NCBI RefSeq assembly: GCF_024204645.1
Contig: NZ_CP100351.1
Coordinates: 2,816,001 to 2,880,000, forward strand
Source: Desulfomicrobium sp. ZS1
Lineage (GTDB): Bacteria > Desulfobacterota > Desulfovibrionia > Desulfovibrionales > Desulfomicrobiaceae
Length of the DNA stretch: 64,000 nucleotides
Direction: 5' to 3'
The translations under genes and the position numbers were made by a program. Positions 28,495-44,176 of this stretch are shown piece after piece. The stretch's first letter is position 1. Each line of letters begins with the position of its first letter. The notes below the pieces were generated by a model. That model had not been told where the DNA came from, did no database searches, and saw only the letters and a list, made by a program, of their open reading frames with translations.

Positions 28495-28581
28495 GCCCGG
28501 GTGGTGGAAGTGGTAGACGCCAGGGATTTAAAATCCCTTGACCTTCGGGTCGTGCCGGTTCAAGTCCGGCCCTGGGCACCA
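28495..28581 (+). tRNA. tRNA-Leu (UAA anticodon), CCA encoded
   Basis: Acceptor arm GCCCGGG pairs with CCTGGGC (one G-U), the D-arm region has GGTAGACGCC, the anticodon stem AGGGA/TCCCT holds loop TTTAAAA (anticodon TAA), a long variable arm TTGACCTTCGGGTCG is typical of class II Leu tRNAs, and the T-arm reads CCGGTTCAAGTCCGG. The CCA end is encoded. The 3' 58 bp are duplicated at 41024, showing use as an integration site. Confidence 0.97.
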
Positions 28582-28582
28582 A
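28525..28582 (+). repeat. attL: tRNA-Leu 3' end, left attachment site
   Basis: From the anticodon stem to one base past CCA, 58 bp match 41024..41081 with two differences. Both lie in the variable-arm stem and are compensatory (A-U here, C-G in the other copy), so either copy completes a functional tRNA. Confidence 0.93.
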
Positions 28583-28588
28583 TAAAAC

Positions 28589-28626
28589 AAAGGACTTAAA
28601 GCAATATGCCGCAAGTCCTTTTCTCT
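28589..28626 (+). terminator. terminator supplied by the element behind tRNA-Leu
   Basis: AAAGGACTT pairs with AAGTCCTTT across a 15-base loop and ends in T-rich sequence. It occupies the same place as the native-looking terminator now found beyond attR at 41091 (AAAGGCTTGT/ACAAGCCTTT), so the element provides a replacement. Confidence 0.75.
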
Positions 28627-28799
28627 TTTACCTTGATAATCAAAACAGTTTTGCCACTTCTTTGCCACTTTTGCGACTAGCGAAGGGCAAACCCCTTTAT
28701 TATTCCCTTGCCCCGACCTGAAAAAACCTGCGCCTTTCGTTGCTTCTTTCCTTGGCTTGCCCCCATGGTTTTGCTATGGGCGGACCGAAAGGGGGATAT

Positions 28800-29216
28800 A
28801 TGCGTAAATTTCTGATCGTGCTCTTCATTGCTGTCCTTGTCCTCGGGTGTGGAGCTGCTGGCAAGCGTTATGAGGCGGGACTGAAGTCACTTGAAGGAAA
28901 CCACGTTGACGAATTTTATAAGTCATGGGGACCAGCAACGGGAAAAGCAGATCTCTCTAATGGCGGATATATCTTGTCTTGGTCTAAAAGCCAGATGAAA
29001 AATGCGGGGACATACAACACGACATCTACAAAATCAGTAATGCTTCCAAGTGGATCACTTGTTAGTGTTCCAGTAACACAAACACATGGGGGCGGTTCAT
29101 ATACTCGCACCTATGAAGTCATTGTTGAATTTTCAAAAGAAAACCTTGCTCAAAACTTTTCATACCAAGGCGGCCCGGCATGTAGACGATGGTTTCCAGT
29201 TCCAGAAGTTAAATAA
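28800..29216 (+). CDS. small lipoprotein, 138 aa, next to attL
   Basis: MRKFLIVLFIAVLVLGCGAAG is a signal peptide with lipobox LVLGC. The mature part has a WGPATGKADLSNGGYILSW segment resembling the G-x-P-T...W/Y pattern of SmpA/OmlA-like small lipoproteins, then a Ser/Thr/Gly-rich stretch. The ATG at 28800 follows GGGGG. It reads away from the tRNA and directly abuts the next gene. Its low-key position at the element end suggests cargo. Confidence 0.7.
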   Translation: MRKFLIVLFIAVLVLGCGAAGKRYEAGLKSLEGNHVDEFYKSWGPATGKADLSNGGYILSWSKSQMKNAGTYNTTSTKSVMLPSGSLVSVPVTQTHGGGSYTRTYEVIVEFSKENLAQNFSYQGGPACRRWFPVPEVK

Positions 29217-29423
29217 ATGAAAAAACTATTAACCGGAACTATCCTTCTCTTCATCCTTTCCACTGGTTGCACCTGGCAGGACACGGCCAAGTTCACGGCC
29301 AACGCTGCCGTTTATAGTGCCATGATTGCCACGGGCAACGCGGGCGATTGGAACATGAACGCGGATCTTGCCGGACAAGCTGCGGAAGACTTTGCGGACC
29401 TGGCTTTCAACTGCACGGAATAG
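29217..29423 (+). CDS. small lipoprotein, 68 aa
   Basis: MKKLLTGTILLFILSTGCTWQ has a clear lipobox (LSTGC). The remaining 48 residues are Ala/Asn/Asp-rich with one more Cys near the end. The ATG immediately follows the stop of the preceding lipoprotein gene, so they are a two-gene unit. I do not recognise the family. Confidence 0.65.
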   Translation: MKKLLTGTILLFILSTGCTWQDTAKFTANAAVYSAMIATGNAGDWNMNADLAGQAAEDFADLAFNCTE

Positions 29424-30266
29424 CCCCCGGCCAGGGGTAGCTTTTCACTCCGGAAACTCTTGCCGTTTCGGTCGGGAAACTCCGCCCCGCCTTGGTTCAA
29501 CCATTTGAATTTCAGGAGTTTTGTGCAAGATAATTTCCCGACCGTAGCCGCCTGGTCACAAGCCCCGAAACTCGGTCAGAAAACCCCCGCTTTTTGTGTC
29601 AAATAACTCCCGCCCACTTGCGCCCTAGCCGTTGGATTTTCTGAACAATCCCGCCTTGAGTTTTTAGACATTGCCCGGCCTGAATTTCTTTACCGCAAAC
29701 CCCCTAATCTTGGTGCGGAAACTCCCCCCATATTTGACGGGAAGCCTTGCCCCTGGCTAACTCCCAGCCTTGAGTTTTTGCACACTCCCTCGCGCGTGCG
29801 CGCGTACTGGTTAGCTAGCCCCTTTAGCTGTCAAAAATGTCACTAACGCACTCCCGGCAATCCCGCTGCCCCTGTGTGTCATCACTGTGTAACCGCATCC
29901 CCATAATGCCCTTTTTTGCTGGGGAAACCTGTAGCAGGATAGGACTTTTTCACGGAAGGGGGGTCTTCCTTCCCGCGATACCTTGGAGAAAGAACCACCG
30001 ATAACTTGCAACACGGTTTCCCCTTCGCGTGCGCGTACTGGTGCGGTCCCGTGGTGCCATGCGTGTCACTTCCACTATTGGTAGGGGCAAGGCGCTTCTC
30101 TCGCGCGTGCGCGCGTACTGTTCACCTGGCTAGTTTACTGACAGGTCACTGACACCTGAAAGCGGGTCGGAAATAAACACATATCTGACACCTAGCGGGC
30201 GGGGGTTACAATCCACTTACACCTAGCCGCGCCCTGTTTCTGGCCTGTATTTTCAGGGGCGGGAAA
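29424..30266. other. long non-coding stretch of the element, candidate replication origin
   Basis: About 840 bp with no convincing gene. It contains repeated short motifs: AACTCCCGCC-like words near 29478, 29604, 29726 and 29759, 'GCCTTGAGTTTTT' twice (29653 and 29769), GACACCTAGC-type words near 30150-30220, and three alternating CG repeats (separate entry). The element encodes a primase-helicase but no other recognisable origin, so this is the best origin candidate. That is inference. Confidence 0.45.
29790..30120. repeat. three copies of an alternating CG repeat (TCGCGCGTGCGCGCGTACTG)
   Basis: Copies at 29790..29810 and 30101..30120 are identical over 20 bp; a shorter copy lies at 30025..30041 (TCGCGTGCGCGTACTGG). 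The alternating purine-pyrimidine runs could adopt Z-DNA, and each copy ends in GTACTG. Similar sequence follows copies 1 and 3 (CTAG..TTT..TGACA/TGTCA..GTCACT), so the true repeated unit may be about 60 bp. Confidence 0.8.
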
Positions 30267-30290
30267 TGAAAAAGCCCGGTTGCCCGGGCT
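30267..30290 (-). terminator. terminator at the end of the element's minus-strand operon
   Basis: On the minus strand AGCCCGGGCAACCGGGCTTTTTC forms a stem (AGCCCGG/CCGGGCT) with a T-run, 8 bp after the stop of the Gly-rich protein gene. Confidence 0.85.
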
Positions 30291-30297
30291 GTTGTGG

Positions 30298-31278
30298 TTA
30301 TCTGCCAAATCCGGCGTTTCCTGCCGTATCGCTGTTTCCGTCATTGGAGCCAAAGCCCCCGGAGTCCCTGCCACCAGATCCGCCACCGCCCCCGCCGTAG
30401 CTTGAGGGATTGCCGATTCCAAGCCCGGCAAAGCCGCCCATGCTCCGACCATAAGCGGAATCCATTGAACGGGCACCGCCTACAGGTCCACCCATGGAGC
30501 CCCAGCCCCCATAAGAAGATCCCGAGGGATTGCGCCCGGCCATGGCCTTGCTTGCATCGCGGTTGCTCATTCCCCTGGCCAGGTCCGTGGGTCCATAGCC
30601 GTAATCTTGTGCCATTTTACCGAGGGAGCCAAAGCCGCCCACCGTTGCCATGGCGTCAAAGTCCCGCGCTGCTGCCCTTCCTCCAAAGGTGCCATGCGCG
30701 CTTTCAAGGGCGTCCCTGTGCTTCTCATCACGGCGGGAATCGGTTGCATCCCCCAGGGCGTCCGCAACGAACGGAGCCGCGAAGGAATAGCCAAGCCCGG
30801 CCAGGGGGCTCATAAGTCCAAGCCCCATAGCCACCACGGGATTGATTGCACTGGCAACGCGGCCCACTGCCCCGGTCGGGTTCGTGAAGCCCGCCGCCTT
30901 CGCTGCTACGTTCCCAGCAAGGCCCGTTATGTTCCCAGGGGAAGCAAGGTTCCCCGCAAGGTTTCCCATAACGTCACCGAAGCTAGGAGAGAAGCCCGCC
31001 GCCAATGCCGCGCCCGTTCCAAGGGCTGTTCCGCCAAGGGCCTTTGCACCGTACCCGCTAAACATATCCGCCAACTCCCGCGCGTTCACGCGGCCCGTTG
31101 CGGTTGTGGGGGCATTGTTCGGCGTCGTGGCCTGGGAGCCGTAAGGACCACCCCCGAGGGAGTAGCCACCGCCGCCCCCTATCCATGACGGGACGTTCGG
31201 CGCTGCCGGGGGCAACGTGCCCGCCGGGGGGCTTGCACCCCATGCCGTGTTCCATGAGTTATTCCAAGGTGAGTTCAT
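30298..31278 (-). CDS. Gly/Ala/Ser-rich protein, 326 aa, unknown
   Basis: The protein begins MNSPWNNSWNTAWGASPPAG and ends in a Gly-Ser-Asn-rich low-complexity tail. A middle part (about residues 75-190) is Ala/Gly-rich and hydrophobic, with LMSPLAGLGYSFAAPFVADAL as a possible membrane helix, followed by a charged segment (DSRRDEKHRDALESAH). GGAGG precedes the ATG at 31278. Such composition is seen in phage structural or injection proteins and in membrane-active peptides, but I cannot assign it. It is the last gene of the minus-strand operon. Confidence 0.7.
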   Translation of the reverse strand: MNSPWNNSWNTAWGASPPAGTLPPAAPNVPSWIGGGGGYSLGGGPYGSQATTPNNAPTTATGRVNARELADMFSGYGAKALGGTALGTGAALAAGFSPSFGDVMGNLAGNLASPGNITGLAGNVAAKAAGFTNPTGAVGRVASAINPVVAMGLGLMSPLAGLGYSFAAPFVADALGDATDSRRDEKHRDALESAHGTFGGRAAARDFDAMATVGGFGSLGKMAQDYGYGPTDLARGMSNRDASKAMAGRNPSGSSYGGWGSMGGPVGGARSMDSAYGRSMGGFAGLGIGNPSSYGGGGGGSGGRDSGGFGSNDGNSDTAGNAGFGR

Positions 31279-31431
31279 GTTTTTACCTCCACGGGGCGGC
31301 CCTTGGAAAAGCCACCCCATGCTTTAGCGTTCCACTTTTTGCACTCCACTAGCCACCAAGCCAGGACGGGGGGCGGACGCGGAAACAATCCGACTATCCC
31401 GGGATATGGCCGGGGCGTTGGGCCTGCGTGC

Positions 31432-31647
31432 CTAGCTGTCCGCCTGCTTCTCTTCCTTCGCCCCGCTGCCAAGCCTGAAACGGTAAAGGGGGCAATGCGT
31501 TGTCGGACACAAGCGGACTTCCTTGCGGGAATTGCACATGCAATCCAAACAATACCGCCTGACTGCACGCGGGGGGGTATCCCAATTCCGTTTTGACCTG
31601 GCCACCGCTTCACCCTTTTCCACCTGTACGGCCTGTGCTTCGCTCAT
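31432..31647 (-). CDS. small Cys-rich phage-type protein, 71 aa
   Basis: MSEAQAVQ... leads into RRYCLDCMCNSRKEVRLCPT and a following CPLYRFRLG segment: five Cys and one His arranged like a small zinc knuckle. Similar small Cys-rich proteins ending in a 'CPLYxFRxG' pattern are familiar from prophages of this group. GGCGGAAACC precedes the ATG. It overlaps the upstream gene by 38 bp. Confidence 0.7.
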   Translation of the reverse strand: MSEAQAVQVEKGEAVARSKRNWDTPPRAVRRYCLDCMCNSRKEVRLCPTTHCPLYRFRLGSGAKEEKQADS

Positions 31648-31813
31648 GGTTTCCGCCTTGCGCCTTTCGCGCTGTATTGGGTTCCTGGGTTCCTGCCCGT
31701 AAATTCTCGATTGCCTGCCACAAGGTCCGCGTGCGTGAATCAAGCATGGATTCCAACGCGGCTAATTCGTCTTCAAGGATCTGGACACGCTCTTGAAGGT
31801 CCGGCCTGCTCAT
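31610..31813 (-). CDS. small coiled-coil protein, 67 aa
   Basis: MSRPDLQERVQILEDELAAL starts a single predicted coiled coil (heptads of Leu/Ile through about residue 40) and a basic Gly-rich tail. The start overlaps the preceding gene by ATGA, and a GGGGG box is present. Function unknown. Confidence 0.6.
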   Translation of the reverse strand: MSRPDLQERVQILEDELAALESMLDSRTRTLWQAIENLRAGTQEPNTARKAQGGNHERSTGRTGGKG

Positions 31814-32160
31814 GGTTCGCCCCCTGGGTAGGGCTCTTCCCACCACGCGCGGTTGACCTTCCAGCAAAAGTCACCGCCCCCGGGATGGTACCAAGGGCAG
31901 GCAAAGCACCCCTTCCACCACTGCGGACAATCGCGGGGATGAAGTAACTCTTCGGGATCGGGAGACGGTCCCTCGAAGTCCGTAATTTGTTGCATCGTTG
32001 AATTTTCGGTCCGGTCGCTCCGGTCGGTCGGGTTAGCCCTTGTTTCACCTGGGTTTTGCTGACCCGACTTGTCATTTTCGCAATTCCGGTCGCTCCGGTC
32101 AGGGCGCTTTTCACCGTGCTTCCCGCTGGCCAGTTCAAGCAGGCGCTCCGTGTTCAGCAT
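31810..32160 (-). CDS. small protein with charged N-terminus and Cys/Trp-rich C-terminus, 116 aa
   Basis: The first half is rich in Asp, Arg, Ser and Asn with a twice-used DRSDR word; the second half has CPQWWKGCFACPWYHPGGGD and one more Cys, a possible four-Cys metal site. The start overlaps the primase gene end by 7 bp and follows GGGGGG. The overlap with the next gene (ATGA) supports it as a real coding frame. An internal start at Met56 cannot be excluded. Confidence 0.6.
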   Translation of the reverse strand: MLNTERLLELASGKHGEKRPDRSDRNCENDKSGQQNPGETRANPTDRSDRTENSTMQQITDFEGPSPDPEELLHPRDCPQWWKGCFACPWYHPGGGDFCWKVNRAWWEEPYPGGEP

Positions 32161-34604
32161 GATTGCCCCCCTTCATCATCCGGCATGTTCACGGCATAAA
32201 CCCCGACCTTGCCCAAATCCGGAAGCGACACGCGGACTTTCAAGCCCTTGTCGTTTTTGTGGAGCATCCCGGCACGGTCCAAAGCCTTGGCCGCCGTGGT
32301 CGCGTTTAGTCCACCCAGCACCGCATTGAACTGGTCGGAAGTGAATAGAAACTGGGCTTGCCCGTTCAAGGTTCGGCGGAATCCTGCCCGGTCCAAGATC
32401 CGGTCTTCCGCGCCGGGGTCAATGCTTTGGAAGCGGCTGGACCCAAAGCGGGCAATGAAGGCCCGGACCGTTTCCGCTGCCCTTCGGTCTTCCTGATCGC
32501 CCGTATTTCCCCGACTTTCGAGCCATGATTCCAGGCACCCCTTGGCGGCGGCCAGTGATTCACCTTCGGCCCAAGGGACAAGCCCGAAAGCCACCGCGAG
32601 TTCCCCGGCAAGCCCTGTCAGGGCAAAGCGCTGAACCACGCGGCGGACCTGTCCGGTTGCATCCTTCGGGGACCAAGCGCATTGCACGGCGTTAATTTCC
32701 TGGGGAAGGGACAACTCACCACGGCGGCGGGTTAGCGCATCAAGAAAGGCCCGCCCCAACGTGCCATAATTTACATGGCTTGCGGCGTTGATAGCGTCCG
32801 AAAACTGGCCTGGCGTTTCATGCCCGTGGAGTTCCTGCCAACTCCCCAGCCCTGCCCCTGCATCCGCTGACAGGTCGATAATGCGGACTTCCTGCCCGGC
32901 CCGGATCTGCTGGCCGTCTTCGCGCATCTTGTCGGCAAGAGTCATTTCACCGTTGGATAGAATCGGAATCCGCCAGGACTTAAGCGCCCGCGCGGACCCA
33001 TCAACCTGGGATCTACTTTTCCCCTGGCCGTTCGCAATCAAATACGCGGCTTCACCAACTACCTTGCCCGGCGCTTGTCCTATTTCATCCAGGCATAGCA
33101 GGGCGTCATTATGGAGAGCGCTGATTGATTCCAAAGCATTTGACGTTGCGCGCCATGTCCGTACCCCAGAGCGCACCCCCCAAACAGACCACGCGGCCCT
33201 TATCAACGTGGTCTTGCCGGAACTGCTCTTGCCGTGAAGGTGAAAGCCCCCGGAATCCATCCCGGCCAGGTCGAGCAATGGCCCGGACAAGGCGGCACTG
33301 ATTGCAAACATAAGCAAGCGGTTTCCCCTGGCCCATGCGCCCATGGTAGCGTTCCACTCTTCAAGGGTTCTTGCCTGCCTGAAGGGGTTCACAGCCAAGG
33401 ATGATTGGAGCACAAGCCGTTCTTCGCCCTGCCCATAAACCGCATCCGGCAACACAAAAGCCGGACCATGCCAGCCCGTGCAGTCAACACACCGCGCCCG
33501 GCTGTGAACTGTCACCGTGGCTAATAGCTGGGCAAGCAAGCCCTTTGCCCTGCTCCCGATCCCGCCCCGCCAACCACCATGAAGCAAGGTTGAAAGCCAA
33601 CTCTGCTTGGTATCGTAAAGCAATGACGCGGGCATGGCCCACCAGTGCGGCACGTTGTCCAGGTCATGCCACCCCAGATAAAGCCCCCATGCTTCTGATT
33701 CGCTGTTTCTGGTCCTGGCCAGGAAATGAAGCGCTTCACCCAGCCACGTTTTTTCCGGTTCTTCGGAGCCGTCCGACTTCGCAACATGCCAAAGCCCCTT
33801 GGCGTTGATCGCGTATCCTTCGGGCAAAATGGCGTTATCCGTGGGCTGACCCGACCGACCGGAATTGTCATTTTCACTAGTCGGGTCGATAAAACCCCCG
33901 TCATTCGTGGGCTGACCCGACCGACCGGAGCGACCGGAATGGTTTTCATAGGATTGCAAACTGTCTTGGGGGGCTTGCCTGGGTTCGGTCATGCCCTTGG
34001 CTAGGGCGTCTTCAATCGTGTCCAAGGTCTTGTCTTCGGATTCCGCGCCTGTATTCCATGATTCCACGGCTTCCATGATTGCGGCCCGGGCTTCCTGCTC
34101 CACCACTTCACCGCCTGAAATGAGCCCACCCAAGGCGGCCACGCTCTTGAATAGCTGGTCATGCCGCTGGCCTGCTGGGGCGTCGGCAATGGCCCTGCAC
34201 TCTTCCACCAACGCGGTCTTGCCGTAGGGCGTCGATAGCGTAGCGGTTATCCTGGGGCAGGGCTTGGCTTCAGGCGTCGGCTTCGGCTTCCTGGCTAGGC
34301 GCTCTTTCCATGCTTGGGGAAGCGGGGCGGGCTGTAGGCGGTTCAACCATTCATAAGCCCCGTCTTCGTTGCGCGAAGGGGCAACCACAACATATCCCCC
34401 GGCGCTGCGTATATCGATACCAGGGGCAACCTTGCCCACGCTGCAAGGGATCTCCACGCCGTCCGGGAACTGAAAGAATAGCTGGTCCCCACCGCTGCCC
34501 GTGCGCTGCTGTAGCGTTGCGGGAAGGGGTCCAAGATCCGCTTCCAGTTCCTTGCATGAGGCTATACCGTCCACCCCATGCTTGCGGTCACGGTCGATAA
34601 CTAG
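32154..34604 (-). pseudogene. primase-polymerase/DUF927 helicase gene, 3' part (split by IS21)
   Basis: This is the larger fragment of a gene whose 5' part is at 37190..37395. It resumes with L-V-I-D-R-D-R-K-H-G, the catalytic DxD of archaeo-eukaryotic-type prim-pol domains, then a helical linker, and a DUF927-like helicase domain with Walker A HGKSSSGKTT and surrounding FHLHGKSSSG. A GTG at 34574 could still give an 806-residue protein lacking the prim-pol start. Removing the IS and one copy of the 5-bp duplication restores an 884-codon frame (including stop). Confidence 0.88.
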
Positions 34605-34701
34605 TGTTGATCAGCACCCTAATGGAGCCACCGATCGGCACCCTAATGAAGCCAGCAAAAGTGAGAGATTTTCGCTCGGACGACCTCGTCTAGTTATGTG
34701 T

Positions 34702-35460
34702 TTATGAGTCGCCTCTGCAAGGAGAAACATCCATGCGAGGAGTCCTGTAGCTCTTGCCGTCCAGCATGATCTGATAGGCGCCGTGCTTGATCCGGTCGAG
34801 AGTGGCTGCCCCCAGCAGTTTGTTGTGGAAGGCGTCGTTCCATTCCGAGAAGTCCAGATTGCTCGTGATGATCGTTGGCCGCCGCTCGTAGCGATCCGCG
34901 ATGACGTCGTGGAAGTCTTCGTCCTGCCCGGGGCGCATGGGCTTGAGACCGAAGTCGTCGATGATGAGCAGGTCTGCCTTGGTCAGTGCCGCCAGCTTGC
35001 GCTCGAAGTTGCCCACGGCCCGTGCTGAGGCGAGCTGGCCCAGCAGCTTAGCATGGGAGGCAAACACGGTGTCGTAGCCGCGACGTACGGCGATGTGGCC
35101 CAGTGCCTGGGCAAGGTGGCTCTTCCCGGTGCCGCAGGGGCCGACGATGAGCACCGGGACCTTCTCCTCCAGGTAGCGACAGGTGGCCAGATCCATGATC
35201 TGCGCCTGGTTCACCCCGAGGTTGAAGGTGAAGTCGTAGCTTTCGAGCGTCTTCTGCGCGTTGATGCCGGCCCGGCGCTGCCTCATGACGAGTTTGCGCT
35301 GCTCACGGCGGGCGATCTCGTCTTCGATGAGCAGGGCCAGGAAATCGGTGTAGGCGAGCTTCTGTTCCACGGCTTGACGGTTGCGGATCTCCAGGGAGTC
35401 CAGGATGCCGGAGAGGCGGAGTTGTTTCAGGTGCGGCGTGAGTTGAGGCATGGGGTTCAT
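34702..35460 (-). CDS. istB: IstB, IS21 transposition helper ATPase
   Basis: An AAA+ family ATPase of 252 residues. It begins MNPMPQLTPHLKQLRLSGIL, has Walker A VGPCGTGKSH, Walker B LLIIDDFG and a C-terminal DRIKHGAYQIML segment typical of IstB. I use the ATG at 35460, seven bases after AAGGA; the longer frame upstream runs into istA. IstB directs IstA to target DNA. Confidence 0.96.
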   Translation of the reverse strand: MNPMPQLTPHLKQLRLSGILDSLEIRNRQAVEQKLAYTDFLALLIEDEIARREQRKLVMRQRRAGINAQKTLESYDFTFNLGVNQAQIMDLATCRYLEEKVPVLIVGPCGTGKSHLAQALGHIAVRRGYDTVFASHAKLLGQLASARAVGNFERKLAALTKADLLIIDDFGLKPMRPGQDEDFHDVIADRYERRPTIITSNLDFSEWNDAFHNKLLGAATLDRIKHGAYQIMLDGKSYRTPRMDVSPCRGDS

Positions 35461-35470
35461 TGCTGTGTCC

Positions 35471-37000
35471 TTAGTTGAGCAGGTCAGAGTTGCGGGTGAA
35501 GCGGGACGTTCCGCCGTAGGCATCAGGCAGGGCGATTGGCAGGGAGAGGTTTTGTTGGTCCAAACCCTTCTCCAGGATATTCTTCACGTTGCGGTACGTT
35601 CCGGCTCCGTGATCCAGGGCTCTGGCGCAGGCCGCCTCCAGTCGTCGTTTGCCGTAACGACCCTGAAGTTGCAGCAGACCTTGAACAGCTCGCAGGTTGT
35701 CGAGGACGCGGTGGGTAAAGAGATCATGGACCAGTTCCAGGCAGCGTTCTCCGATTTTTTCAGCCTGAGCCAAGCACCACTGCGGATCACGCATCAGGTA
35801 AGCCGTGGCTTCCGGCGGCAAATGGTCCTGCACCGTGCTGCGTGCGCCAGGTTTTGACAGCCGGGGATGAGTAGCCACGAGTTTTTGTTCATGGAAGATC
35901 TGCACGGTCTTCTCCGTGGCACGCAGCCAGAGAGACTTGTGGACCAGCGTGAATGGGGCGGAATAGAAGGCTTTTTCGAACTGGACATGGCAGTTGCCAT
36001 GCAACTTCACCGATGCCCATGCTGCCAGTTCGGGCGCGATATCCGGCAGGGGACGCAGGAAATCCTTCTCCATCTCGGCGAAACGAACCAAGGGCTTCTG
36101 CTTGGTCGTGCCGTGAATGCGGTTTCCGGCTATGCCCATGACCCATTCGTGGAGTTGGCGGTTGGCGTCAGCCAGACTGCGGAACTCTCGCAACTTTGCG
36201 AAGCTGTTTTTGACGTATTTGATGTTCGATTCGACGACGCCCTTTTTTTGCGGGTCACGCGGAGGGCATGCGGAGACCAGGAAGGAGTACCCCTCGGCAA
36301 ACTCGGCATAAGCCCGCTGGACTTCTGGCTCGTAGTAACAGGCGCGGGTGATGGCGCACTTGGGGTTGTCGATGACTGTCTTGAGTGGCGTGCCGCCGAA
36401 ATGTTCGAAAGCCCGGCGATGGCAGCCCAGCCAGGTTTCCACGCGCTGGTTGGTGACCAGCTCGGCGTACATGTGCTTACTGCACGGGAGCGTCATGACG
36501 AAGAACCACGTCTTCATGACCTCGCCGTTATGGACGTCGGTGATGACGGGGCCTGCGCCAAAGTCGATCTGGGCGGTCTCGGCTGGAGGATGATCAAGGA
36601 AGACAGTGGCTACCGGCGCTGACTTCTGGTGGCTCTTGAGCAGGCGTCGCACCGAGTCGTAGCTTCCAGTGAAGCCGTAACGTTCGACCAGAGCCTGATG
36701 GATCGTCGTGATCTGTATCCCCTCGTCGGCCCATGTGCAGATCTGGTCGACAAAGGGCTTTGCCAGGGACTGTGATGGTTGCGTTCTCCTTGGGAGCTGA
36801 AGCAGGGATTCCAGGACATCGTTGGGCGGGAGGGGTTGACTGCGGTCCAGCCAGCCTTGCTCCAACGCCAGGACGCGAAGCTGCGCGGCTTTAGGCCGCC
36901 CCATTGCGCCTGCGCGGGCAATATCCCGGTCAGACTCGCCTAGTCGCATCCGGGCGATGACGTGACGTATTTCGTGCATTGCGAACCTCCTGTTGGCCAT
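35471..37000 (-). CDS. istA: IstA, IS21 transposase
   Basis: A 509-residue DDE transposase. An N-terminal helix-turn-helix (MHEIRHVIARMRLGESDRDIARAGAMGRP) is followed by the rve integrase core: first Asp in QIDFGAG, second Asp in VIDNPKCAI, Glu in KGVVESNIKYVK. The C-terminal Mu-type domain follows. AAGGAGGA precedes the ATG at 37000. The stop lies 10 bp before istB. Confidence 0.96.
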   Translation of the reverse strand: MANRRFAMHEIRHVIARMRLGESDRDIARAGAMGRPKAAQLRVLALEQGWLDRSQPLPPNDVLESLLQLPRRTQPSQSLAKPFVDQICTWADEGIQITTIHQALVERYGFTGSYDSVRRLLKSHQKSAPVATVFLDHPPAETAQIDFGAGPVITDVHNGEVMKTWFFVMTLPCSKHMYAELVTNQRVETWLGCHRRAFEHFGGTPLKTVIDNPKCAITRACYYEPEVQRAYAEFAEGYSFLVSACPPRDPQKKGVVESNIKYVKNSFAKLREFRSLADANRQLHEWVMGIAGNRIHGTTKQKPLVRFAEMEKDFLRPLPDIAPELAAWASVKLHGNCHVQFEKAFYSAPFTLVHKSLWLRATEKTVQIFHEQKLVATHPRLSKPGARSTVQDHLPPEATAYLMRDPQWCLAQAEKIGERCLELVHDLFTHRVLDNLRAVQGLLQLQGRYGKRRLEAACARALDHGAGTYRNVKNILEKGLDQQNLSLPIALPDAYGGTSRFTRNSDLLN

Positions 37001-37189
37001 CCCTTCCTCCTTGTGTTTCAGGAGGTCCGGGATAGGCGGTGAGGAAGTCCGAGCGAAGTGTTTTTATGGCTCTCTCAAAATCAAGGTGGCTCCATTAGGG
37101 GTGCACACCAAGTGGCTCCATTAAGGGTGCCGATGAACTGGCTCCATTAGGGTGCCGACGTTTTGGCTTCATAGGGGTGCTGATCAACA

Positions 37190-37395
37190 ACTAGCAAGCC
37201 GCTTACTGGCCCGGTCGGTAAGCCTATTCCTGCCACCCCTGGCCGGGAGAACATTTCTTTGATTGTGTCAGGGTCGGTTGTCGCGTCCTTGAACCCGTTG
37301 GGGGTCAAAGGCGCTTTCTTGATATTCACCGGAAAGACAGGCTTCCCCTTCGCGGCTATGGCAAGGGCTGCGCTTAATAGCGCCTGGCTATCCAT
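37190..37395 (-). pseudogene. primase-polymerase gene, 5' part (68 codons) cut by IS21
   Basis: Starts MDSQALLSAALAIAAKGKPV and contains the prim-pol N-terminal pattern (GKPVFPVNIKKAPLTPNGFKDA; GIGLPTGPVSGLLV). Translation runs into the IS and stops after about 82 codons. The sequence continues in frame at 34604 after removal of the IS. The start codon shares one base with the stop of the upstream gene (TAATG). Confidence 0.88.
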
Positions 37396-37535
37396 TAGCG
37401 CACCTTCCCGGCTACCGGATCCGGAGCTTGACTATCAGCCCCCTTTGTGAAACATTCCCCGCAACACACACACCGTTTCACGCGCCCCGCTTCATGGTCT
37501 TGCCCGGCCTTGGCGGGGTTCTCTTTTTGCTTCAT
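37395..37535 (-). CDS. 46-aa protein with a CxxC-type Cys cluster
   Basis: MKQKENPAKAGQDHEAGRVK leads to RCVCCGECFTKGADSQ, four Cys in eight residues, likely a metal-binding knuckle. It is coupled to the primase gene by TAATG. An upstream in-frame start at 37577 would overlap the HTH gene. Small size makes this a moderate call. Confidence 0.5.
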   Translation of the reverse strand: MKQKENPAKAGQDHEAGRVKRCVCCGECFTKGADSQAPDPVAGKVR

Positions 37536-37543
37536 GCTACCCC

Positions 37544-37798
37544 CTAGCCCTGGATTTCCAAGCGGTTCAGAAACCAATCAATAAAGGGTTCCCGAAGGTA
37601 GCCCACCTTGGTCTTGCCCATCTTGACCTTGCCACCGGGTCCGGTGCCGTCGCTGTCCCTGTTTGCAAGTGTCCGCCCGTCGATCATTCCCCCCGTAAGC
37701 TCTTTGACCTGCTGCCGGACAAATACCGCCGGAAGGGCCGCCAAAAGTTCCCGCTTCAAGTCCTCTTTCCGCTGTCTTTTGATTTCGACTTTATTCAT
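37544..37798 (-). CDS. small HTH DNA-binding protein (AlpA/excisionase-like), 84 aa
   Basis: MNKVEIKRQRKEDLKRELL is a basic helix, followed by AVFVRQQVKELTGGMIDGRTLANRDS and a KTKVGYLREPFIDWFLNRL segment. The layout (helix-turn-helix, wing ending in an aromatic 'R...F..WF..R') resembles MerR-like excisionases/AlpA regulators of integrated elements. GGAGTG precedes the ATG. Likely a regulator of excision or of the operon, by inference. Confidence 0.65.
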   Translation of the reverse strand: MNKVEIKRQRKEDLKRELLAALPAVFVRQQVKELTGGMIDGRTLANRDSDGTGPGGKVKMGKTKVGYLREPFIDWFLNRLEIQG

Positions 37799-37929
37799 TC
37801 AAAACACTCCACTCGTTAGGGTTAGTGAATGAATGTGTTATCGCTGATATTTAAGGCTATTCTGTAGGGCGGATTTTCGAATAACTGGCAGGATTTCAGG
37901 TAGGATTTTCAGATTTTTCGAAGGGCAAC

Positions 37930-37950
37930 AAAAAACCGGGTTTCCCCGGC
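37930..37950 (-). terminator. terminator after the 283-aa gene
   Basis: Reading the minus strand, GCCGGGGAAACCCGGTTTTTTG forms a CCGGG/CCCGG stem with a T-run, 17 bp past the stop at 37967. It splits the element's minus-strand genes into two transcription units. Confidence 0.8.
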
Positions 37951-37966
37951 TTGCTGAATCAATCTT

Positions 37967-38818
37967 TTATGACTGTTTTTTCTTAATCGGCCTAGGCTTA
38001 CCCAAAAGGCCGTAATGGACCCGTTCAGTATAGCTGCTGTTCAGGCGGTCTTTTTCTGCCTGGGCGTTTCGGCCTGGAAGCGGCTGACCCGTGGCTATGG
38101 CCATTGCTGCGTAATTCGTGACCTTGCCCCATTTCCCTTGGGCGTTCCGAATCATATAGGCCCGGGCTGCTTCGTCACTAAATCCGCGCTCTATCAACTG
38201 TTCATTGTATTCCTTGGTCGTCGCGGGCAACGCTTCCGGCGGGTCCACCTGCGGAATCCCTACCTGTTGCCCGTTGCCTGTGGTGGCCGTGTGCGACGTT
38301 GTGGCGGGCTTCATCCCGTGGACTTCGATTTCAGCGGCCTTGACCATGCGGGCTACCATTTCCGCGTCTGTGATCCCGGCTGCCCGGAGAGTTTCGGCCA
38401 GGGCTTCGGCTGTGTCTGGCTTGTGGGGAAGCGGCCCTAGCCCGTGGGCTTGTTCATAGGCTTGGACTTCAGAAATATTGAAACATAGCCGTTTCACAAA
38501 ATCAATTCGCCAATAGTCACGCCCACCATCTGCCATTTCCCAGTCAACACTACTGCAAAGAACATCTTCATCAGAATAGGGATCTTCCCAAAAGGTATTA
38601 TAGCAAACTGGATTATCCCCTAATTTAGTGCAAAAAAAACACTGCGCTACGCTATTCTGAGGTGTTCGACGGTCGGTTTCTTTCCATTCGAATCGTTTGC
38701 CTGTGCCTAGGTCTACTGCAGTCAGTCCTTTTGAAAGAACAACCCCTACAAATTCAAACGGCGCTGCCTGCCACCGCTCTAAAATCTCTTCACCCGTAAT
38801 CCACCGCTTTTCCACCAC
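37967..38818 (-). CDS. 283-aa protein of the integrated element, unknown
   Basis: A GTG start gives MVEKRWITGEEILERWQAAP, a helix common in element-encoded proteins with a 'wHTH-like' N-terminal region. The middle has a Cys-containing segment (AQCFFCTKLGDNPVCYN), and the C-terminal third has an Ala-rich helical region ending KPRPIKKKQS. The ITGEEILERW start also resembles AlpA-like 'element' proteins, but no catalytic motif is visible. No functional call. Confidence 0.6.
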   Translation of the reverse strand: MVEKRWITGEEILERWQAAPFEFVGVVLSKGLTAVDLGTGKRFEWKETDRRTPQNSVAQCFFCTKLGDNPVCYNTFWEDPYSDEDVLCSSVDWEMADGGRDYWRIDFVKRLCFNISEVQAYEQAHGLGPLPHKPDTAEALAETLRAAGITDAEMVARMVKAAEIEVHGMKPATTSHTATTGNGQQVGIPQVDPPEALPATTKEYNEQLIERGFSDEAARAYMIRNAQGKWGKVTNYAAMAIATGQPLPGRNAQAEKDRLNSSYTERVHYGLLGKPRPIKKKQS

Positions 38819-38931
38819 GTCACTGCCCCTTTGCCCCCGTTGAGAAGATCCAGGGCCAGGCGCAACCGGGGCAGGTCATGCGCTTTTCGGTCGGGGCAAT
38901 TACTCCCGGCCTAGGCCCTGGGAATTTTGAG

Positions 38932-39117
38932 CTATGCCCTAGCGCGTTCAGAGATAGCCGCGTCAACCATAGCGCCGAAAAACTCCATCATCTTGAGTCG
39001 CTGTTCCTGCTCCATGCCGTCAATCACGGGTGCCAAGGTCGCCATGCCTACCACAATCTTGCCAAGCAAGTCTTGATTGTTGTTTTTGTCCGTGAACTGA
39101 TTTGCTGCTGTTCCCAT
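38932..39117 (-). CDS. 61-aa helical protein, unknown
   Basis: MGTAANQFTDKNNNQDLLGK is followed by an amphipathic helical part rich in Met, Glu and Ala. An excellent GGAGGTG box seven bases before the ATG supports expression. It starts 2 bp after the stop of the 141-residue gene, suggesting co-translation. Confidence 0.6.
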   Translation of the reverse strand: MGTAANQFTDKNNNQDLLGKIVVGMATLAPVIDGMEQEQRLKMMEFFGAMVDAAISERARA

Positions 39118-39119
39118 GA

Positions 39120-39545
39120 CTACACCTCCCCCGGCATGGCTAGTTCCACAACCTCGGCCAGTTTATCCGCGCCGGGCTTGCCTGCAAAAACCGCCTTTGC
39201 TCCCCGGAGCAACGTGCCCACCACCTTGTCCTTACGGGCCTCTTCAATACGTTCCGCTTCGGTCGGGTGCAAATAGTTCTTGAAGTCTTCCGCCTCAACA
39301 TGCGCCCGGAGCGTTTCCACCTGGGCCACTGTGCGGGACATGAGCCGATGCCATGCGTCAACGTCAAACTCGTAATCATTCCAACTCAAAGCCTTCCATG
39401 CCTGCGTCATCACGTCGAGTTCGTCGTGAATCCGGCCTAGTTCGCTTTCCGTTTCGGATACAAGTTTACGCATCCCTTCATAAGCGGCGCGCGGGTCGGT
39501 AAGGTTGCCTGTTGTCGTGTTGGTCTGTACTGCCTGCATAGCCAT
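39120..39545 (-). CDS. 141-aa helical protein, unknown
   Basis: The ATG at 39545 (MAMQAVQTNTTTGN) follows GGGGG; an in-frame ATG at 39629 would add 28 residues without such a site. The protein is mostly helical with heptad-like spacing (RAAYEGMRKLVSETESELGR onward) and a Gly/Ala-rich C-terminus. It lies between the integrase and the 61-residue gene. No family recognised. Confidence 0.6.
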   Translation of the reverse strand: MAMQAVQTNTTTGNLTDPRAAYEGMRKLVSETESELGRIHDELDVMTQAWKALSWNDYEFDVDAWHRLMSRTVAQVETLRAHVEAEDFKNYLHPTEAERIEEARKDKVVGTLLRGAKAVFAGKPGADKLAEVVELAMPGEV

Positions 39546-39645
39546 GATGAACCCCCTAGGTTCGTTTGTGGTAGGCATGGCCGGGAAGGCGCAATCTTCC
39601 CGCCGTGCCGTTTTAACCCCGGCACCCATTGCCAGGGTCAGAAAT

Positions 39646-40887
39646 TCATTTCTTCCCGCCGTGGATCTCTATCACTTTCGCGGGCTCAGTCTGCATCATC
39701 CCTTCCAAGGCGCTCATGGCCCGGCGGCGTCCGGCGTCCCCACTGTGCTGATAGCGTAGCGCCATGGCAGGCGTCTTCCATCCGGCCAGGTCCATCATAT
39801 CCCGAAGCGGCGTGTTCAACTGGCCAAGCCTTGTTGCCCCTGTATGCCGCAAGGAATGGAATACAACCTTGTCACGCTTATCCCGCCCCGCGTTTAGCCC
39901 CAGATCATCGGCCACGTCACGAAATGACCGGGGGGCTTGCGTGTAGGGTTCACCCTTTGCCCCAAGGAACACAAGGCCCGTCTTCGGGTTCATATCCTTG
40001 AGCATGTCCACCAATGCCGGGGAAAGCGGAATGGTTCGGCTTGTCCCGTTCTTGGTATCGCGGAAGGTCGCTTGTGTGTTGGCAAGATCCACGTCCCGCC
40101 ACTCCAACTTGAAGGCTTCCCCAGCCCGGCAACACGTCATGGCGCAAAACAAGGTCAACCTGTAGGCGTGCTGGTCACGTCCGGCCAGGGCTTCAAGGAT
40201 GGCCTGCAATTCCTCGCTCGTAAGCGTCCGCGTCCGGCGGTTACTTTCAGGCTTCAGGACCGCGCCAACGTGCTTACCCCTGGGCGGGGCTTCCGTGATG
40301 ATCTTCCGCATAAAGGCGTGATCCATAATTTGCCGCAAGGTCAGGGCTATGTATTGCCTTGTTCGTGGAGCAAGCCCGGCGTCCGTCAAAGCCTTAATCA
40401 GAAAGTCCCACTGTGCCAGGCCAATTTGCCGCAAGGGGATATGCCCTAGCAACGGTTCAAGCCAGTTCTTGAAGTGACTTTCTTCCTTATCCCAAGACTT
40501 GGCCTTTTTCTTCTGTTTGGCGGTCCCCAAGTATTCCGGCCAATAGTCGGCAAGGGTCACAAGCTCCGTTTCCTGTAGGCGCTTCAGGCGTTCGGCTTCG
40601 GCCTTCTCTTGCTCTTCCGCCTGGATCTCTTCGGCCTTTGTTCGCGGCCCTTGCGTGATACCCTTGGCGGCCTTGGTATATGCAAGGCGTCGAGACACCG
40701 CCTCTTCCTGGGTCATGCCATCGGAAGCCCACCCAAGCCCCTGCGATTCCATCTTGCCGTCAACGGCATAGCGGATGCTGAAATATCTATCGTAACCTTT
40801 GCCATGCTTCCGGCTGGGATCAATTTTGACCCGCACCCCCCGCGCAACCGTTACCCATTTTTCTTCCATCCCTTGCCCCTTTGCCAT
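39646..40887 (-). CDS. int: tyrosine site-specific recombinase (integrase) of the element
   Basis: A 413-residue phage-type integrase. The N-terminal arm-binding domain (KWVTVARGVRVKIDPSRKHG) is followed by a core-binding SAM-like domain (ADYWPEYLGTAKQKKK...) and the catalytic domain with Arg in CCRAGEAFKLEW, HSLRHTGAT (H-x-x-R) and the Tyr in ALRYQHSG. I use the ATG at 40887 (MAKGQGMEE). It lies 137 bp from attR and drives integration into tRNA-Leu. Confidence 0.95.
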   Translation of the reverse strand: MAKGQGMEEKWVTVARGVRVKIDPSRKHGKGYDRYFSIRYAVDGKMESQGLGWASDGMTQEEAVSRRLAYTKAAKGITQGPRTKAEEIQAEEQEKAEAERLKRLQETELVTLADYWPEYLGTAKQKKKAKSWDKEESHFKNWLEPLLGHIPLRQIGLAQWDFLIKALTDAGLAPRTRQYIALTLRQIMDHAFMRKIITEAPPRGKHVGAVLKPESNRRTRTLTSEELQAILEALAGRDQHAYRLTLFCAMTCCRAGEAFKLEWRDVDLANTQATFRDTKNGTSRTIPLSPALVDMLKDMNPKTGLVFLGAKGEPYTQAPRSFRDVADDLGLNAGRDKRDKVVFHSLRHTGATRLGQLNTPLRDMMDLAGWKTPAMALRYQHSGDAGRRRAMSALEGMMQTEPAKVIEIHGGKK

Positions 40888-41023
40888 TGCCAGTTTTTTG
40901 CCACTTTTGCCACTGAAAAGCAATTATTGCCAGTTAAAGCTAGTGACAACACACTAGGCGTAAACTACTGACACGTCAAGGATATTGTGTGATTTAATGA
41001 AGGTAAATGAAGCCTTTCAAAGA

Positions 41024-41081
41024 GATTTAAAATCCCTTGCCCTTCGGGGCGTGCCGGTTCAAGTCCGGCCCTGGGCACCAA
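41024..41081 (+). repeat. attR: duplicate of the tRNA-Leu 3' end
   Basis: 58 bp matching 28525..28582 with two compensatory differences in the variable-arm stem (CCC/GGG instead of ACC/GGT). The 5' half of the tRNA is missing, so it is a remnant, not a gene. It is followed by what was probably the original tRNA terminator. Confidence 0.93.
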
Positions 41082-41126: not shown

Positions 41127-41499
41127 GACCCGCTACCCCGTCCCTGCCTTTCCCGCTGCCTTTGTCGCCATCTCCCCTGCTGCCGCCGTCGCTGCCTTTC
41201 CCGCTGTCTCTGTCGCTGCCTTTATCGCTGCCTTCCCCGCTGCCTCCAGCCCTGCCCCCCATTGCATAAAAAAAGGCGGGATAAACCCGCCTGAAGCTTT
41301 GAAACCAGTCCTGTCCGATCAGACACCGAGAAGGAGTGGTGAATGGAGGGAGGGGGATAAAAATGGGGATGGGAAGAGGACAAAGGCAGGGACAGGAAAA
41401 TATCCTCGCCTCTATCGATGCGTTTATCGCAGCCTCTGTCCCTGCTCCGTCGCTGCCTTTCCCACTCACCATTCACCAATCACTATTCACCAAGAAGAA
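41127..41499. repeat. intergenic purine/pyrimidine arrays and GTGAATGGT-type repeats (set 1)
   Basis: No gene. From 41130 to 41260 a pyrimidine-rich array of units like GCTGCCTTTGTC; from 41333 a purine-rich arm starting GTGGTGAATGGAGG and ending near 41398, then its inverse (CCTCGCCTCTATCGATGCG ... CACTCACCATTCACCAATC) to 41492. The second block is a large imperfect inverted repeat with GGTGAAT-type words at its outer ends. Confidence 0.8.
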
Positions 41500-43789: not shown

Positions 43790-44176
43790 TCCACACGCCC
43801 GTCGATGCCTCTCCCGCTGCCTTAATCGCTACGCCGTCGCTGCCTTTCCCGCTGCCTCTGTCGCTGCCTCTCCCGCTGCCTCTGTCGCTGCCTCTATCCC
43901 TGCCTCCGTCCCTGCCTCCGTCGTTGCCTCTCCCGCTGCCTCTATCGCTGCCTCTATCCCTGCCTCCGTCCCTGCCTCTATCCCAGCCTCCGTCCCTGCC
44001 TCTATCCCAGCCTCCGTCCCTGCCTCCGTCCCTGCCTCCGTCGCTGCCTCCGTCCCTGCCTCTATCCCTGCCTCCATCCCAGCCTCCATCCCTGCCTCTC
44101 CCGCTGCCTCCATCCCTGCCTCCATCCCTGCCTCCATCCCTGCCTCCGTCCCTGCCTTTCCCGCTGCCTCCAAAAA
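43790..44176. repeat. large pyrimidine-rich array, 12-bp unit (set 3)
   Basis: About 30 tandem degenerate units of the type GCTGCCTCTGTC / CCTGCCTCCGTC / CCAGCCTCCATC fill the gap to the sulfurylase-kinase gene stop. The opposite strand is almost pure purine at alternate positions. Open frames of more than 110 codons occur in several frames on both strands but encode only simple repeats (for example EAGM/EAGT), so I do not call a gene. Confidence 0.9.

Follow-up and report, generated by a model that had tools for sequence, protein, structure and literature searches.

A probable phage-satellite-type element at a tRNA-Leu gene of Desulfomicrobium sp. ZS1, and an int-alpA RNA with a loop complementary to a ribosome binding site

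How does a small integrative element spread if it has genes for integration and replication and none, as far as can be recognised, for a particle or for conjugation? The question is raised by a tRNA-Leu locus in a 64,000-nucleotide stretch of the Desulfomicrobium sp. ZS1 genome (contig NZ_CP100351.1, positions 2,816,001 to 2,880,000, forward strand; hereafter “the window”, from whose first letter all coordinates are counted). The initial annotation, made from the sequence alone, proposed a satellite that hijacks a helper phage. We favour a similar answer, with moderate confidence: the element is probably a phage-satellite-type integrative element of 9.9 kb, now split by an insertion sequence of the IS21 family.

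The target gene, tRNA-Leu(TAA), is intact (28495–28581, plus strand; ARAGORN and Rfam), and its 3′ part recurs as a 61-nt direct repeat at the two ends of the element, 12,499 nt apart and 95% identical. The attachment (att) repeat at the tRNA side spans 28522–28582 and that at the integrase side 41021–41081 (both plus strand). When the window flanks are joined at the repeat, they give a single alignment (85% over 188 nt) in the sister genome G015, which does not have the element. Repeat and empty site together confirm the integrative element in tRNA-Leu, bounded by att repeats, that had been proposed; the proposed size of about 10 kb holds once a 2585-bp IS21 insertion is subtracted (9.9 kb), the actual end-to-end length being 12.5 kb.

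The evidence for a satellite comes mainly from relatives. Four of them, 9.2–9.8 kb long and with both ends found, lie in the host genome (one) and in sister species (three): L027 in genome G001 (9.5 kb, tRNA-Arg(TCT), 90-bp repeats), L033 (G014:C210, 7685–17478; 9.8 kb, 19-bp repeats), L034 (G008:C32, 1–9219; 9.2 kb, ssrA, 23-bp repeats) and a second element of the host (L108/L109; G000:C1, about 691,101–700,600; 9.5 kb, 21-bp repeats), whose neighbouring genes look like mdoG and mdoH. The second host element carries an int-alpA RNA, a 720-aa primase and a DUF5681 gene. The uniform size of 9.2–9.9 kb refers to these four and the window element, the five with identifiable ends. Phage head genes are found in two of the siblings, an HK97 capsid gene (PF05065, 2.9e-64) in L034 and, in L033, a ClpP-type head protease together with a capsid gene (7.3e-37); both siblings have a Mor-like late activator, and within their att boundaries neither has portal, terminase or tail genes. 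It is through the genes that these capsid-bearing siblings have in common with the window, a 67-aa protein in L034 and a 61-aa and a 283-aa protein in L033, that the putative link of the window element to phages is made. Furthermore, a 141-aa protein is common to the window, L027, the second host element and a further element, L110, and the 67-aa protein to the window, L027, L034 and the second host element; DUF5681 occurs in L027 and the second host element; and a Gly-rich gene occupies the same downstream slot in L027 and in the window, beside the 67-aa and Cys-rich genes. The initial annotation had advised searching other tRNA loci for the same gene order; relatives with overlapping gene subsets were found in tRNA-Arg, ssrA and other sites, and those closest by shared genes are att-bounded elements of 9–10 kb, where full prophages or integrative and conjugative elements would have spoken for decay. 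Two more elements come from another family of the order (L089, 13.8 kb; L102, 9.2 kb).

In the scheme that we propose, the integrase and an AlpA-like protein would excise the element upon helper infection or induction, the primase-helicase would replicate the excised form, a helper phage would package it, and the gene in the downstream slot (capsid and protease in some siblings, the Gly-rich gene in the window) would adapt the helper particles.

The gene content of the window element suits such a scheme. Reading on the minus strand from the integrase end, there follow a tyrosine integrase (39646–40869; PF00589, 1.6e-23), the helical 141-aa protein, a family marker (39120–39545; 68–72% identity in G001, G009 and the second host element), the 61-aa protein (38932–39117; 57% to L033, 56% to L110), an int-alpA RNA, the 283-aa protein (37967–38818; homologues in L033, L036 and L028), an AlpA/excisionase-like protein of 84 aa (37544–37798; hhalign probability 74% against sibling AlpA/HTH_17 profiles, itself without a Pfam match) and a Cys-containing protein of 60 aa (37395–37577; 42% to L028). 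Then comes the primase-helicase, with Prim-Pol (PF09250) and DUF927 (PF06048, 4.7e-70) domains, in a 5′ part (37190–37395; 74% to L028) and a 3′ part (32154–34604), and after it a Cys-rich protein of 116 aa (31810–32160; 44% to L028), the coiled-coil-like 67-aa protein (31610–31813; 52% to L034, 41% to L027, 50% to the second host element), a Cys-rich protein of 72 aa (31432–31650; homologue in the G001 element) and, in the slot after the small coiled-coil gene, the Gly-rich protein of 326 aa (30298–31278). A consensus scan, the only support for them, places terminator-like hairpins on the minus strand 3′ of the 283-aa gene (37933–37952) and of the Gly-rich gene (30273–30290). Pfam and PHROG, and for relaxases NCBIfam as well, revealed no gene for a portal, terminase, tail or relaxase in the element. 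The integrase, regulator, primase-helicase and small proteins of the first description are all there, and its statement that structural and transfer genes are not visible also stands. By gene content, the element is what a satellite would be, equipped for integration and replication and devoid of genes for an autonomous particle.

The small proteins, including the 283-aa, Cys-rich and Gly-rich ones, have no Pfam match and are as unfamiliar as first described. They are nevertheless genuine genes: most of them have homologues in sister species, against which pN/pS values of 0.33–0.78 show purifying selection. The Gly-rich protein (pN/pS 0.44) has one homologue, in the G001 element (65%), among 247 genomes of the order; a supposed third member, in G117, was rejected as the antisense of an unrelated gene. 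The 141-aa protein is present in 4 of 199 order genomes, and its AlphaFold model is poor (pLDDT 54). In scans of genome-contig and viral-contig collections, no match was obtained for the 283-aa protein, the Gly-rich protein or the 141-aa protein.

Purifying selection bears on the idea that the element is the remnant of a full prophage that has lost its structural genes. DUF927 primases do occur in complete phages (MT835519), and at locus L030 of a sister genome a terminase piece lies behind a DUF927-type primase. Decay, however, would hardly leave genes under selection, closest relatives by shared genes that are equally short, att-bounded and at independent sites, or a primase that was intact until a recent IS21 insertion, and we consider a remnant highly improbable.

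At the tRNA end, on the opposite strand, lie two lipoprotein-like genes, of 138 aa (28800–29216, plus; PHROG 3716, 4.8e-8, unknown function) and 68 aa (29217–29423, plus; 35% to the homologue that the G001 element has at this end); in the mostly single-strand layout first described, this pair is the exception. Could the element be a non-transferring genomic island, kept for cargo such as these lipoproteins acting as phage exclusion genes? The tRNA-Leu(TAA) gene is an insertion hot spot within the genus, to which related integrases bring large islands, as in the sister species G002 (L061/L062, C21/C32), where the island has BREX-like genes and a related integrase; the split primase would also suit a stationary island. 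Yet related elements sit at at least four different sites, which speaks for mobility of the family, and the cargo in the window is minimal and has no match in a defence library, so that an island of this kind is distinctly unlikely.

Several observations weigh against the satellite that we favour. A helper prophage in the host, which the initial annotation had advised seeking, did not turn up: PF05065 (HK97 capsid) has no match there, and the sole match to the terminase family phrog_2 proved to be RecD. As one studied satellite has been found to be mobilised by phages foreign to its strain (PMC11389934), the missing helper is weak evidence against a satellite. The family marker proteins have no match in phage records, two exact patterns of the int-alpA RNA have none in IMG/VR, and the Gly-rich protein has none in either and no recognised kin outside the G001 element, its AlphaFold model being of low confidence (pLDDT 35). 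Furthermore, the backbone of integrase, AlpA and DUF927 protein is shared with the relaxase-bearing mobilizable elements L037, L092 and L093 of other Desulfovibrionales loci, and since DUF927 primases occur in complete phages as well, the core alone is no proof of a satellite. On the other side, related DUF927 proteins are found in satellite-sized records; a 10.2-kb record also encodes an integrase, a primase and a P2-type capsid protein, and another, PT1028, is a studied satellite. A satellite lifestyle is our best reading of the genes alone, from which helper, packaging, excision and transfer are all extrapolated.

The relaxase-bearing relatives point to another way of moving. The element could be mobilizable through an unrecognised origin of transfer (oriT) only, its own integrase excising it, its primase replicating it and a conjugative helper carrying it. 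Integrative elements of this oriT-only kind exist (PMC11389934), providing a precedent, and the 830 nt beyond the Gly-rich gene, which are without convincing genes, would offer room for such a site. (An iteron-type origin in this gap was rejected, as a 10-mer occurs there only three times and the siblings have nothing equivalent.) The absence of relaxase and coupling genes from the window element and from the genes listed for the four siblings closest to it, the phage head genes in two of these and the uniform size of 9.2–9.9 kb speak against it, and we regard it as unlikely. A phage satellite, hijacking a helper as first proposed, agrees with the att-bounded siblings and the lone capsid modules of two of them, and lacks a helper match in the host. 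Likewise, the suggestion of an undescribed satellite family of sulfate reducers fits the same-sized elements, whereas packaging, helper and excision were not observed; the library searched returned no study of such satellites in Desulfovibrio or Desulfobacterota. Since two of these same-sized elements with a common core lie in a single finished genome, helper and packaging are directly testable, and the lone-capsid elements would represent an intermediate between plain satellites and capsid-forming ones.

Is the window copy still functional? The IS21-family insertion (34605–37189, 2585 bp), overlooked in the initial annotation, interrupts the primase-helicase gene. It ends in short inverted repeats, is flanked by a duplicated 5-bp target, ACTAG (34600–34604 and 37190–37194), and contains istA (35471–37000, minus) and istB (34702–35460, minus). 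Once it is removed in silico, the gene reads through as a single 883-aa frame, which can be aligned with L028, a relative without the interruption, and the same IS21 is present in the host genome in three full, 100% identical copies. Because the copies are identical and the rejoined primase reads through, the damage is, as judged from these sequences, recent. The window copy is probably crippled. In the phage-inducible chromosomal minimalist islands (PICMI), deletion of the primase lowers replication and transduction and does not stop excision (PMC10803314); by this analogy, the window copy probably still excises and replicates or spreads poorly. At a contig edge in G002 (L030:13251–14094, C45), this IS21 end also seems to interrupt a gene for a terminase large subunit.

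More interesting is the RNA between the integrase and the AlpA-like gene, which the initial annotation had also overlooked: an int-alpA RNA (RF02996; 38837–38921, minus) with a three-way junction, a covariance-model score of 41.4 bits against a gathering score of 35.8, and better folding than shuffled sequences (z −2.8). All seven family elements examined in the genus have it (the window, L027, L028, L033, L034, the second host element and L110), as do L097 and L102, related elements from another family, while L030, L031, L038, L061, L063, L089 and L096 stay below the gathering score, as does L029, with a sub-threshold match. Across the order it was found in 65 of 297 genomes (59 over the cut-off), compared with none of 14 control genomes, and in nine aligned copies both partners vary in 14 of the 18 predicted pairs.

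The apical P3 loop, CUGCCCC (38868–38874, minus), has its complement at two sites on the 3′ side of the RNA: GGGGCA directly behind it (38832–38837, minus) and GGGGCAG (38823–38829, minus), which is the Shine-Dalgarno sequence of the gene that follows. With this second site the window loop matches over 7 nt (CUGCCCC/GGGGCAG), and 7 nt separate the end of the GGGG from the GTG start codon of the 283-aa gene. Both in 34 copies and in a diverged subset of 20 (more than three edits apart in the P3 arm), loop-target matches exceed the permuted level; for those 20, the longest match averages 5.1 and 5.4 nt at the two sites, versus 3.7 and 3.9 nt with the loops permuted (z 6.6 and 7.3; 0 of 5000 permutations), a test that leaves some relatedness among elements in place. 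The P2 arm, used as a control, gives z of about 1, and control loop and diverged subset speak against relatedness as the cause of the complementarity. Loop and target also change together, as in GTCTC/GAGAC (L027), CTCCTCA/TGAGGAG (L131) and CCTCT/AGAGG (L135); further matched types are CTCCCA/TGGGAG (L121), CCCTTA/TAAGGG (L102) and GCCTG/CAGGC (L033). Additionally, in 14 of the 20 the Shine-Dalgarno lies inside a small hairpin loop, where shuffles would predict 3.8 and never exceed 9 in 300 trials. This hints at loop-loop pairing; the window Shine-Dalgarno, which has no such hairpin, counts against it. The gene behind the RNA varies, being the 283-aa gene in the window, its homologue in L033, one with a very similar N-terminus in L148 and other proteins elsewhere.

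These patterns suggest that the int-alpA RNA may be a loop-to-ribosome-site switch resembling C4 RNA, whose apical loop would pair with the Shine-Dalgarno of the 283-aa gene and so control it, in cis or in trans. The divergence of the loops is not supported as an immunity or incompatibility determinant, since the loops of elements that share a genome do not differ more strongly than those of pairs drawn at random (cross score 8.58 versus 7.81, with 2928 of 3000 shuffles no higher). We put forward only tentatively, as somewhat less than an even chance, the wider proposal that the switch replaces a protein repressor and that int-alpA marks a large undescribed satellite superfamily, with an integrase-RNA-AlpA-primase core and one swapped phage-derived structural slot, holding a capsid or the Gly-rich gene. 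For int-alpA, an RNA family of unknown function, the covariation of loop and target makes a specific and cheap test possible.

A few observations stand beside these subjects. L033 and L034 have in common a small conserved gene for a membrane zinc-ribbon-like protein at the far end; a gene for an ERCC4-type nuclease is found in the related elements L097, L102 and L111/L112; and DUF5681 genes also occur in L097 and at a G088 locus. The record MT836812, matched by DUF5681, is a fragment of phage tail genes and not a packaged relative. In the right flank, 12-nt tandem repeats of the GCCTCTGTCGCT type (41131–41256 and 43803–44000) lie beside PEP-CTERM-like genes, and similar repeats are present in G015.

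Among known satellites, those like P4 share with the window element a tRNA-gene integrase, a primase-helicase, an AlpA-like gene and a similar size. Of their published markers (Psu PF07455, Sid, delta PF04606, epsilon PF10554, alpha PF03288, AlpA PF05930 and integrase; PMC8628076), a Pfam scan without a Sid profile matched only the integrase; Psu, delta and epsilon gave no match and the window primase belongs to another family, so the element is not one of them. Phage-inducible chromosomal islands (PICI), including the capsid-forming ones, likewise have integrase, AlpA and primase followed by a downstream module, a place taken by capsid and protease in the siblings. The capsid-forming islands, however, have a complete head and packaging set, while the siblings have the capsid with or without protease and no portal, terminase or connector, and the window none of these; the window also has no recognisable gene for redirecting packaging or changing capsid size, and L027 and the second host element carry DUF5681. 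In the PICMI of Vibrionaceae, integrase, AlpA and primase form a core for excision and replication and the helper supplies the rest; they are defined by integrase, AlpA and a DUF3987/DUF5906 primase, inserted at fis (PMC10803314). Our elements resemble them in small size and in the core of integrase, AlpA-like protein and primase, and the primase of sibling L034 even carries the PICMI domain DUF3987. They differ in lying in tRNA and ssrA sites rather than next to fis, in their 9–10 kb, in the int-alpA RNA and in the capsid genes of siblings; the window element, with tRNA-Leu as its site and a Prim-Pol/DUF927 primase, falls outside the PICMI definition.

The Pseudomonas phage vB_Pae_U10 (PP003922, 10.2 kb) and SaPIpT1028 share with the window a DUF927-type protein and a satellite-sized genome; in U10 the protein is accompanied by an integrase, excisionase genes and a P2-type capsid gene. 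Their other genes are from other families, and the primase-helicase is 33% (U10) and 25% (PT1028) identical. Instead of int-alpA, C4 antisense RNA (RF01695), which has no match in the window, occupies the corresponding region of U10 and of phiAH14b, both satellite-sized Pseudomonas phage records (L042:2158–2360, L043:3839–4043); the C4 a1/b1 target RNA is above cut-off in U10 and weakly matched in phiAH14b. The C4 RNA of phage P1 blocks the ant ribosome site, and the loops of the P1/P7 RNA are complementary to targets that include a ribosome binding site (PMC12197685). The int-alpA RNA has another fold, belongs to another Rfam family and has both of its target sites 3′ of itself; the complementarity between loop and ribosome site, as read from sequence in 20 diverged copies, is what it shares with C4.

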